Assembly (NCBI RefSeq): GCF_000949135.2
Contig: NZ_JTAN02000019.1
Location: forward strand, 930,001 to 994,000
DNA length: 64,000 nt
Reading direction: 5' to 3'
From: Burkholderia sp. USMB20
Lineage (GTDB): Bacteria > Pseudomonadota > Gammaproteobacteria > Burkholderiales > Burkholderiaceae
Position 1 is the stretch's first letter. The number at the start of each line of letters is the position of its first letter. Both the position numbers and the translations under genes were made by a program. Below the pieces are notes generated by a model, which saw only the letters and a list, made by a program, of their open reading frames with translations, was not told where the DNA came from and searched no databases. Positions 34,850 to 37,078 of this stretch are shown piece after piece.

Positions 34850-34893
34850 AATCCGCGCATTTTGACAAAAGCGCGCGGATTCTCCGCATTTTT
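34850..34893 (+). terminator. Candidate terminator downstream of tldD
   Basis: AATCCGCGC (34850-34858) and GCGCGGATT (34873-34881) form a perfect 9-bp stem with a 14-nt loop. TTTTT follows at 34889-34893 after seven bases. The delayed T-run makes this a moderate candidate. It would insulate the aroG promoter from upstream reading. Confidence 0.5.
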
Positions 34894-34905: not shown

Positions 34906-34934
34906 TTGCCAGCGACGCGGCGACCGGGTATAAA
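34906..34934 (+). promoter_or_regulatory. Sigma70 promoter of the aroG leader
   Basis: TTGCCA (34906-34911) and TATAAA (34929-34934) are separated by exactly 17 bp. Transcription should begin near 34941, about 30 bases before the leader-peptide ATG. Confidence 0.7.
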
Positions 34935-34971
34935 TTCCGAATCAACTTTTTTGACGAACCGAATCTCCGTC

Positions 34972-35037
34972 ATGTCCGCCAAGTTTTATTTTTACTTTTT
35001 TTGGCATCTCAGACCGCTGGCGGATCGAGAGGGTTGA
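34972..35037 (+). CDS. Aromatic amino acid leader peptide of aroG
   Basis: A 21-residue frame starts at ATG 34972. Codons 5-11 read Phe-Tyr-Phe-Tyr-Phe-Phe-Trp, seven aromatic residues in a row, and the frame ends at TGA 35035-35037, 29 bases before the attenuator terminator. This is the arrangement of a ribosome-mediated attenuation leader: stalling on Phe, Tyr or Trp codons when the charged tRNA is scarce would favour expression of DAHP synthase. The ribosome binding site is weak. No function is expected for the peptide itself. Confidence 0.8.
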   Translation: MSAKFYFYFFWHLRPLADREG

Positions 35038-35099
35038 TGGCGCGTGAAGCGCAACCGAAATTCCCGAAAAAACCGCCGGCGAACCCGGCGGTTTTTTTT
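34975..35099 (+). promoter_or_regulatory. Transcription attenuator of aroG with alternative RNA helices
   Basis: Four pairing segments can be read. Segment 1, TCCGCCA (34975-34981, codons 2-4 of the leader), pairs perfectly with segment 2, TGGCGGA (35018-35024). Segment 2, as CTGGCGG (35017-35023), also pairs with segment 3, CCGCCGG (35073-35079), with one G-U pair: an antiterminator. Segment 3 pairs with segment 4, CCGGCGG (35085-35091), in the terminator. A ribosome stalled on the aromatic codons would cover segment 1, release segment 2 and block the terminator. Confidence 0.78.
35067..35099 (+). terminator. Attenuator terminator upstream of aroG
   Basis: The stem CCGCCGG/CCGGCGG has a 5-nt loop (35080-35084), extended by six A-T pairs, and is followed by eight T residues (35092-35099). 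It stands 130 bases before the aroG start. Confidence 0.9.
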
Positions 35100-35229
35100 C
35101 GCCCTTCGCCACCCGGTCGCCGCCGCAGCGGATCCCGCGGCCCCGACCGAAATCACTGAATCGCTTGAATCGATGAATCTGCCGCACGCGCACTGACCGA
35201 ACGGCGCCCGCAAAACCAGGAGAAACAGC

Positions 35230-36422: not shown

Positions 36423-36692
36423 ATGTCGACCGTCAACATGCATGATGCCAAGTCGCGGCTTTCAAGTCTCGTCGAGGCACTGGAACTGGGGCGCGAATCC
36501 GAAGTCGTGATCGCCCGCAACGGCCATCCGGTCGCCCGCATCGTTCCCTACACGGCGCCGCGCCGCATCGGCGCCGCTCGTCAGCTGCTTGCCGGCCTGA
36601 ACATCCCGACGACGGTCGAAGCATTCAATTCCGGCGACGAATCGATCGCAGCCGATTTCGATGCCAGCGCCGAGCGAGGACTCGCGCCGTGA
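36423..36692 (+). CDS. Type II antitoxin, Phd/YefM family
   Basis: An 89-residue antitoxin that should bind and neutralise the downstream PIN toxin and repress the operon. The N-terminal DNA-binding part reads STVNMHDAKSRLSSLVEALELGRESEVVIARNGHPVARIVPY (about residues 2-43; pattern typical of the prevent-host-death fold). The C-terminal part is acidic and probably wraps the toxin. The ribosome binding site GGAGG lies six bases before the ATG. The stop overlaps the toxin start by GTGA. The local GC content is lower than in aroG, so the pair may be acquired. Confidence 0.88.
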   Translation: MSTVNMHDAKSRLSSLVEALELGRESEVVIARNGHPVARIVPYTAPRRIGAARQLLAGLNIPTTVEAFNSGDESIAADFDASAERGLAP

Positions 36693-37078
36693 AGCTGTTG
36701 CTCGACACGCATATCGCGCTGTGGGCGGCTGAAGGCGCGCCGCAACTGTCGCCGACCGCCGTCGCATTGATCGAGGATCCGCAGAACACGCTGTACGTCA
36801 GCGCCGCGTCTATCTGGGAAATCTCGATCAAGTATCGTAAAGGCAACCTCCCCGTTCATCCACGCGATGCCCGTTCGGCATTCCGGCTCGCTGGCTTCGC
36901 GGAATTGTCGATCAATAGCGATCACGCCGAGGCGGTCGCTGCGTTGCCGGATTTCCCTGACCATGCCGATCCGTTCGATCGCATGATGGTCGCGCAGGCG
37001 CTACATGAAGGCATGCCGCTCGTCAGTGCCGATCCGAAGGTATGGCGCTACCACGCAACACTGATGCTACGCGCCTGA
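36689..37078 (+). CDS. PIN-domain ribonuclease toxin (VapC-like)
   Basis: A 129-residue PIN-domain nuclease that would cleave RNA and stop growth when free of antitoxin. The acidic active-site residues are all present: Asp6 in LLLDTHIALW, Glu44 in SIWEISIK, Asp97 in DPFDRMMVAQA and Asp115 in LVSADPKV. So the toxin is predicted to be active. The GTG start overlaps the antitoxin stop, implying coupled translation. The pair lies between aroG and hmpA and is followed by a bidirectional terminator. Its RNA target is unknown. Confidence 0.9.
   Translation: MKLLLDTHIALWAAEGAPQLSPTAVALIEDPQNTLYVSAASIWEISIKYRKGNLPVHPRDARSAFRLAGFAELSINSDHAEAVAALPDFPDHADPFDRMMVAQALHEGMPLVSADPKVWRYHATLMLRA

Follow-up and report, generated by a model that had tools for sequence, protein, structure and literature searches.

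Within the 64,000-nucleotide stretch of Burkholderia sp. USMB20 DNA analysed here (the window), a gene for a class I DAHP synthase, aroG, is preceded by a short leader, and tldD lies upstream of that leader in the same direction as aroG. The nearest named AroG is that of Burkholderia sp. LMG 13014 (L001), which is 99% identical. Just 3′ of tldD, at 34874-34888, lies a small stem-loop whose tail is T-rich on either strand, possibly the tldD terminator. Directly after aroG, at 36423-37078, a pair of genes resembles a Phd/YefM antitoxin and a PIN-domain toxin (PF02604, PF01850). A search of plasmids returned 13 records that contain DNA resembling aroG at 60-80% identity, each covering less than 80% of the query.

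The leader region contains a promoter, a 21-codon frame with seven aromatic codons, a terminator and three possible pairings, each of them where the initial annotation had read it (Table 1). In the antiterminator, 35017-35023 (CTGGCGG) pairs with 35073-35079 (CCGCCGG), with one G-U pair and a possible extension to 35016 with 35080. In the terminator core, 35073-35079 pairs with 35085-35091 and is followed by eight T residues at 35092-35099; the distance from the terminator to the aroG ATG is 130 nt. RNA folding gives a 14-bp terminator hairpin at 35066-35098, and the fold of the leader RNA is better than that of dinucleotide shuffles (z = -2.79; 3 of 200 shuffles as good). A simple terminator scan of the window does not include 35073-35099 in its output, though folding shows the hairpin there, and a simple consensus promoter scan finds no site at the leader promoter, because its rule demands T as the sixth letter of the -10 box and so misses TATAAA. 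TTGCCA or TTGTCA together with TATAAA recurs 5′ of the leader in loci L001-L011, with TTGCCG in that of Trinickia (L008). The attenuator-like layout 5′ of aroG is real, and more than chance.

Table 1. Features of the aroG leader region, in positions of the window
Feature	Positions	Strand	Remarks
-35 box TTGCCA	34906..34911	+	Read in the sequence; TTGCCA/TTGTCA recurs here in relatives
-10 box TATAAA	34929..34934	+	17-nt spacer to the -35 box; ends 37 nt 5′ of the leader ATG
5′ UTR stretch AUCAACUUUUUUGA	34941..34954	+	Might pair over 14 bp with 35025-35038, lengthening the protector (weak to moderate confidence)
Leader peptide ORF MSAKFYFYFFWHLRPLADREG, 21 codons	34972..35037	+	ATG at 34972, TGA at 35035-35037; no Shine-Dalgarno sequence
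Aromatic run FYFYFFW (leader codons 5-11)	34984..35004	+	TTT TAT TTT TAC TTT TTT TGG
Region 1 (protector strand) TCCGCCA	34975..34981	+	Perfect pairing with 35018-35024 (TGGCGGA)
Region 2 GCTGGCGGA (5′ strand of antiterminator)	35016..35024	+	Pairs with 35073-35080; covariation
Region 3, common to antiterminator and terminator	35073..35080	+	Covariation in both helices
Region 4 and eight U (intrinsic terminator)	35085..35099	+	Predicted stem 35066-35079 with 35085-35098; covariation
aroG, class I DAHP synthase, 357 aa	35230..36303	+	PF00793; NCBIfam NF006723 AroG, 606 bits (cut-off 568)

Conservation of this layout was judged with a strict test in three parts: a short ORF in which a stretch of 10 codons includes no fewer than five F, Y or W; a terminator whose stem has five or more G-C pairs and whose end is U-rich; and a pairing of 5 bp or more that joins RNA downstream of the run to the 5′ arm of the terminator. 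It was applied to the 420 nt upstream of the 80 best AroG loci of at least 591 matching relatives, a named set that is biased to close ones and includes one locus (L054) with too little upstream DNA to judge. The window and 40 of the 80 named loci passed, compared with none of 379 upstream regions of other ORFs. In a same-order sample of AroG loci at 62-81% identity (the best 60 among the matches listed, G001 and G284 being left out), 17 passed and 43 failed, and the test was passed by 42 of 48 AroG loci found through the covariance model described below. Second AroG paralogues, about 60% identical and located in the same or related genomes, had the leader in none of six cases, including L170 (G001:C3:1890614-1891657). 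An earlier form of the criterion wrongly turned down terminators with a stem that continues into the U-tract, and seven aroG genes with shifted starts were counted among its controls; in that form, none of 1040 dinucleotide shuffles made from 52 positive regions combined leader, terminator and antiterminator.

The loci with the element include those of Burkholderia, Paraburkholderia, Caballeronia, Trinickia, Cupriavidus, Oxalobacteraceae, Bordetella, Xanthomonas, Stenotrophomonas and Dyella, to which Devosia (L045, L060, L071) was added by eye, outside the strict test, as were L078, L032, L218 and L165. Failures include Rhodocyclaceae, Azoarcus, Thauera, Methylotenera, Ferrovum (L063), Chromobacterium and Chitinimonas, and none of eight enterobacterial or three Vibrionaceae aroG loci passed. 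The layout is kept in many alpha-, beta- and gammaproteobacteria, and what had been taken for an unusual device of this organism belongs to aroG genes far more widely and is no oddity of one organism. For comparisons of the leaders themselves we used 99 distinct sequences, five of them added by hand (L045, L060, L071, L078 and L218); L180, whose region 2 core has another form, was dropped. At a locus of the symbiont Candidatus Burkholderia humilis (L012), about 175 to 28 nt 5′ of aroG, the frame is shifted within the aromatic run relative to its kin, has no stop codon after region 2 and continues through the terminator region, which could reflect decay of the control or an assembly error.

A covariance model (R1) was built from 45 aroG leaders and searched against genomes at increasing distance. 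In the nearest family, presumed to be Burkholderiaceae, 48 of the 60 genomes searched match at E <= 0.01, and 43 of the matches are full-length, one per genome, with E <= 2.6e-8; all 43 adjoin AroG and 39 of them pass the strict test. The weak matches in that family (L153-L156) have no AroG nearby. Across 274 genomes of the class, 77 reach E 0.01. Among the class-wide matches listed, most are partial and lie at the terminator end, and five are full-length with E < 1e-9, each with AroG nearby; the weak ones (L095-L119) have no AroG in their vicinity. Ten of the match regions were read individually. One (L094) is an aroG leader, another (L101) has an aromatic-rich frame with no pathway gene downstream on its strand, and the others, apart from L109, resemble terminators or coding ends. 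At L109:1501-1635 (G282; weak R1 match, E 1.6e-4), a short frame with IYYF and a terminator precede a gene for an MFS transporter (PF07690), which may be a further aromatic leader or a chance likeness.

Around G225, whose AroG groups with that of Stenotrophomonas, 12 of 61 genomes match R1 at E <= 1e-5, 11 of them over the full length. A search of 398 genomes from the whole phylum gave 52 matches at E <= 1e-5, all full-length, of which 21 are in families outside the window's class. Forty-three of the 52 were inspected: 39 precede AroG, three pheS and one pheA, the last four with E values of 1.7e-8 to 2.7e-7. One pheS and the pheA product were identified by NCBIfam, and the other two pheS by their likeness to that pheS. 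The pheA locus and two of these pheS loci, when submitted to Rfam, reach the gathering score of the Phe_leader family. A model made from aroG leaders alone therefore recovers known Phe attenuators, which amounts to an unplanned positive control.

The alternative pairings were examined in two alignments, one of 45 sequences (A1) and one of 103 distinct rows fitted to helix 3:4 only (A3); all 97 loci aligned to the model match it over its full length. Controls were 500 shuffles that preserve the make-up of each column and leave relatedness in. For the terminator helix (3:4), 95.6% of cells are paired in A1 and 96.4% in A3, and doubly changed cells number 21 against 4.2 in shuffles (A1) and 54 against 13.6 (A3). 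As many pairs changed on both sides as in this helix occur in 2 of 500 shuffles for A1 and in 13 for A3, and as many further pair types in 53 and 0, respectively. For the antiterminator helix (2:3), the paired cells are 82.9% (A1) and 88.0% (A3), the doubly changed cells 14 against 3.9 and 26 against 11.3, and the covariation score, which in A3 is 0.091 compared with 0.057 in shuffles, is reached by 0 of 500 in either alignment. Two other measures of this helix are not decisive, namely pairs changed on both sides (reached by 82 of 500 shuffles in A1 and 2 in A3) and further pair types (28 and 175), so that three of five are clear. When the partner strand is slid by 1-3 columns, all helix 2:3 scores fall with two exceptions, both in A3: pair types are equal at +1 and +2, and double-change pairs at +3. 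Pairs flanking the helix are formed in 255 of 396 cases compared with 224.7 after permutation (0 of 5000 as high, with relatedness left in). By these comparisons, both the antiterminator and the terminator helix covary.

The protector helix (1:2) presents another picture. Its paired cells (69.7% in A1, 69.0% in A3) are close to those of shuffles (68.8% and 67.7%), as are its covariation scores (0.217 and 0.142 against 0.215 and 0.143), and it is thus unsupported by covariation. The complementarity of region 1 beats shuffled segments (p <= 0.05) in 20 of 99 leaders, where about five are expected, and 19 of these are in the window's family, the other being from Rugamonas. In Trinickia L008 and three similar relatives (L085, L086, L088), region 1 is broken and region 2 intact. 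An extended protector that includes the 5′ UTR could form 14 bp in Burkholderia and 12 bp with other letters in L003 and L081; it is weak in L004, L006, L090 and L121 and beats shuffles (p <= 0.05) in 7 of 30 leaders. We suggest that protection of region 2 by region 1 is largely a Burkholderiaceae feature. The initial annotation had described three mutually exclusive helices and had called for their covariation, and for conservation of the aromatic run, to be checked across relatives. That comparison upholds the antiterminator, the terminator and the aromatic class of the run, but not the 7-bp protector as a general feature, since it does not covary and is found mostly in the window's family.

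Conserved alternative helices would also be expected of an RNA that itself binds an aromatic compound as a riboswitch, the open frame being incidental. We consider this scarcely credible, the least probable of the readings weighed here, because RNAalifold, applied to the 45 leaders, predicts the terminator hairpin only and no aptamer-like structure, and because the conserved feature is a class of codons in an open frame.

Folding of the window's RNA is consistent with a switch between the two covarying helices. The segment 35015-35080 folds as the antiterminator (-27.6 kcal/mol) and 35015-35099 as the terminator (-33.6 kcal/mol); as the terminator is the more stable once region 4 has been made, antitermination must be kinetic. 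The RNA freed beyond a stalled ribosome, taken through region 3, folds into helix 2:3 in 91 of 99 leaders, which is weak as a test because the control with shuffled region 2 is itself high (1035 of 1980).

Region 2 lies in a different reading frame of the leader in 15 of 99 relatives, and is therefore kept there as RNA and not as peptide. This observation bears on a further scenario, in which the main product acts in trans, either as a small RNA (the terminated transcript of about 160 nt) or as a functional peptide. A short terminated RNA is indeed expected, and there are attenuator RNAs that act in trans, such as rnTrpL of S. meliloti. However, the peptide is unconserved across families beyond its aromatic content, there is no Rfam match at gathering, and the conserved position before aroG points to action in cis. 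We regard a main role in trans as improbable, while noting that trans action and attenuation are compatible and not exclusive. In Massilia sp. YIM B02443 (L023), a one-base gap relative to neighbouring sequences changes the frame of region 2 and the end of the peptide, and the region 2 RNA is intact.

Across the 99 leaders, the main run contains 3-9 aromatic codons (median 7). The sequences of the runs diverge (FYFYFFW, FYFWYYGF, FFTGYFYF, AYSYWYF, YFFFYF, HWFFFGFF) and the aromatic class is kept. Together the runs hold 674 aromatic codons: 387 Phe, 222 Tyr and 65 Trp. Sixty leaders combine all three amino acids, 36 have Phe and Tyr, two Phe and Trp, and one Phe alone. Among 24 leaders sharing the peptide MS[AT]KFYFYFF, third-position variation between T and C affects four of the six run codons; as these leaders were chosen by their peptide, nothing can be concluded from the lack of other change. 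In the runs, 76% of Phe codons are TTT, compared with 16% in the aroG stretches of those loci; in four genes of the window the share is 7% (3 of 42). Perhaps slower decoding is favoured, or an unstructured U-rich stretch.

Two readings of the sensed amino acids follow from these counts. It had been proposed that the charging of all three aromatic tRNAs is sensed at once, and this is too strong: Trp is missing from 37 of 99 runs, including all 13 of the named Oxalobacteraceae. Moreover, since one scarce tRNA would suffice for a stall, the logic of the sensor would be OR and not AND. The other extreme is a sensor of Phe and Tyr only, in which Trp codons are incidental. It would account for the 36 leaders with Phe and Tyr alone and for the small share of Trp among run codons, and the nearest solved structures to the window's AroG, its best PDB matches, include Phe-regulated DAHP synthases. 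It also finds a parallel in the aroR leader of C. glutamicum (Phe-Tyr-Phe), which, according to the review PMC11802643, is reported to answer Phe and not Tyr. Yet Trp is present in 62 of 99 runs and in all 16 inspected phylum-wide leaders outside the window's class, and in the window the Trp codon is the last one that still leaves region 2 free. We therefore consider a restriction to Phe and Tyr possible but rather unlikely, and favour an aromatic-class sensor in which Trp would be optional.

The spacing between run and antiterminator argues, on geometric grounds, for a role of the ribosome. Counted from the A-site at the final aromatic codon, region 2 lies at a median distance of 12 nt (10th-90th percentile 11-18; 99 leaders), and a distance of about 12 nt fits the leading edge of a stalled ribosome. 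By that figure, region 2 would stay accessible during a stall at any of the seven run codons of the window. The stop codon is at least 21 nt beyond region 2 in 30 of the 99 leaders, and masking of region 2 by a terminating ribosome is therefore not direct there.

The spacing also weighs against the idea that the hairpin merely ends an upstream transcript, from tldD or a small RNA, and that aroG has its own promoter within 35100-35229. The gap before aroG has room for a promoter, and tldD is oriented suitably. Against this, the promoter scan found none in the gap (it also missed the accepted leader promoter), the terminator stem ends at most 70 nt before aroG in 65 of 99 relatives, and a terminator of tldD has no need for an aromatic run, a covarying antiterminator or a spacing that fits a ribosome. 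We consider this arrangement very improbable.

Translation of the leader may begin in an unusual way. A Shine-Dalgarno-like 4-mer precedes 1 of 99 leader starts compared with 78 of 99 aroG starts. In 14 of 23 leaders, which were picked by hand, the hexamer most like a -10 box (4 of 6 letters) stops 6-10 nt short of the ATG; in Burkholderia the distance from the box to the ATG is 37 nt. These 14 include Xanthomonadaceae, Bordetella and Devosia; the hexamer is 7-10 nt 5′ of the ATG in L043, L056, L064, L068, L020, L045, L071, L078 and L091, and L042, L060 and L074 are misfits by hexamer score. A spacing of 6-10 nt may point to a leader mRNA that is itself leaderless in those lineages. Leaderless genes are reported in B. 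cenocepacia (PMC4603805) and C. metallidurans (PMC7563307), as far as the accessible parts of both papers go. We infer that initiation at the aroG leader is independent of a Shine-Dalgarno sequence, or leaderless.

Taken together, these observations suggest that aroG is controlled by a ribosome-mediated transcription attenuator, to which we assign a probability of roughly 0.88. The logic of such attenuation, already put forward in the initial annotation, is borne out by the aromatic run, the covarying antiterminator and terminator and the ribosome-edge spacing. Comparison of sequences establishes the aromatic class of the run, helices 2:3 and 3:4, the spacing and the association with aroG; from these we infer translation of the leader, stalling, the amino acids sensed and the ends of the transcript. 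What is sensed is probably the charging of tRNA-Phe and tRNA-Tyr, and in the window also that of tRNA-Trp, with the pathway on when they are scarce. In the proposed mechanism, RNA polymerase would begin at about 34941, and a ribosome would enter the leader without a Shine-Dalgarno sequence. When charged tRNA-Phe, tRNA-Tyr or, in the window's lineage, tRNA-Trp is scarce, the ribosome would stall within codons 5-11 with its leading edge just 5′ of region 2, which would pair with region 3 once the latter is made; the terminator would be blocked and aroG transcribed. When the aromatic tRNAs are charged, the ribosome would pass over region 2 to the stop codon, regions 3 and 4 would pair, and transcription would end near 35099 with an RNA of about 160 nt. 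If the leader is untranslated, region 1, perhaps together with the U-rich 5′ UTR, would sequester region 2 in Burkholderia, and the terminator would form.

The distribution of the element may be compared with the history of the gene. In a tree of 88 AroG rows, of which 50 carry the element (six by eye), the presence or absence of the element requires 9 changes compared with 28.7 for shuffled labels; the element therefore mostly follows the gene. The Devosia proteins sit with those of xanthomonads (100/95), and the two together with Bordetella (99/92). It is possible that the Devosia copies of the element arrived with a transferred aroG.

In gammaproteobacteria, the same metabolic step is controlled by TyrR and TrpR, which are DNA-binding repressors and, in the accessible text of PMC5343134, are described as absent from the other proteobacterial classes. 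The available part of PMC1173090 has a table of putative attenuators upstream of tyrA operons. Within the portion of the open-access literature that could be consulted, no attenuator of aroG is described for alphaproteobacteria, betaproteobacteria or xanthomonad gammaproteobacteria; attenuator surveys beyond it (Panina 2001, Vitreschak 2004, Lopatovskaya 2010) may list part of the cases. A broader scenario, to which we give an even chance, is that an old pan-aromatic sensor of tRNA charging (Phe and Tyr, usually Trp) controls entry into the shikimate pathway in alpha-, beta- and xanthomonad gammaproteobacteria, so far undescribed and in the place that TyrR and TrpR hold in enterobacteria, with its set of amino acids retuned by lineage, a start without a Shine-Dalgarno sequence, and leaderless RNA in several lineages. 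A conserved attenuator at aroG would offer a direct and testable account of how pathway entry is controlled in these bacteria. The R1 model is usable for annotation, the submitted aroG loci having no Rfam match at gathering, and the lineage differences in Phe, Tyr and Trp content offer a natural set of leaders from which the specificity of sensing could be read.

Among known systems, the Phe_leader attenuators, whose leader genes are pheL and pheM, share with the aroG element a short ORF with an aromatic run, an antiterminator and a terminator. Phe_leader (Rfam RF01859) sits before pheA or pheST in enterobacteria; the aroG element differs in that codons for Tyr, and often for Trp, are present as well. 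With the model of this family the window obtains 18.6 bits (E 1.2, over 34962-35100), compared with a gathering score of 55, and at gathering there was no Rfam match in the window or in 18 submitted aroG loci (12 + 6). Of 21 weak Rfam matches in the leader region (E <= 10), Phe_leader alone spans the whole element, and the others were dropped. The aroG element thus stands outside Phe_leader as Rfam defines it. The enterobacterial ilv and thr attenuators resemble it in that one leader senses several end products of a branched pathway; they differ in having branched-chain or Thr/Ile codons and canonical initiation.

Two systems precede DAHP synthase genes themselves, and both are likened to the aroG element by their descriptions. 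The uORFC-13-1 motif before aroF is likewise a predicted uORF attenuator, with at least one Phe codon; in the accessible text it is confined to Acholeplasma and environmental sequences (PMC8632094). In C. glutamicum, aroR before aroF likewise combines ribosome-mediated attenuation with aromatic leader codons; it has three such codons, Phe-Tyr-Phe, and belongs to another phylum (Neshat et al. 2014, as presented in the available parts of PMC11802643 and PMC4046766). By analogy, aroR appears to be the closest functional precedent for the aroG element, and the mode of action would be that of the trp and phe attenuators.
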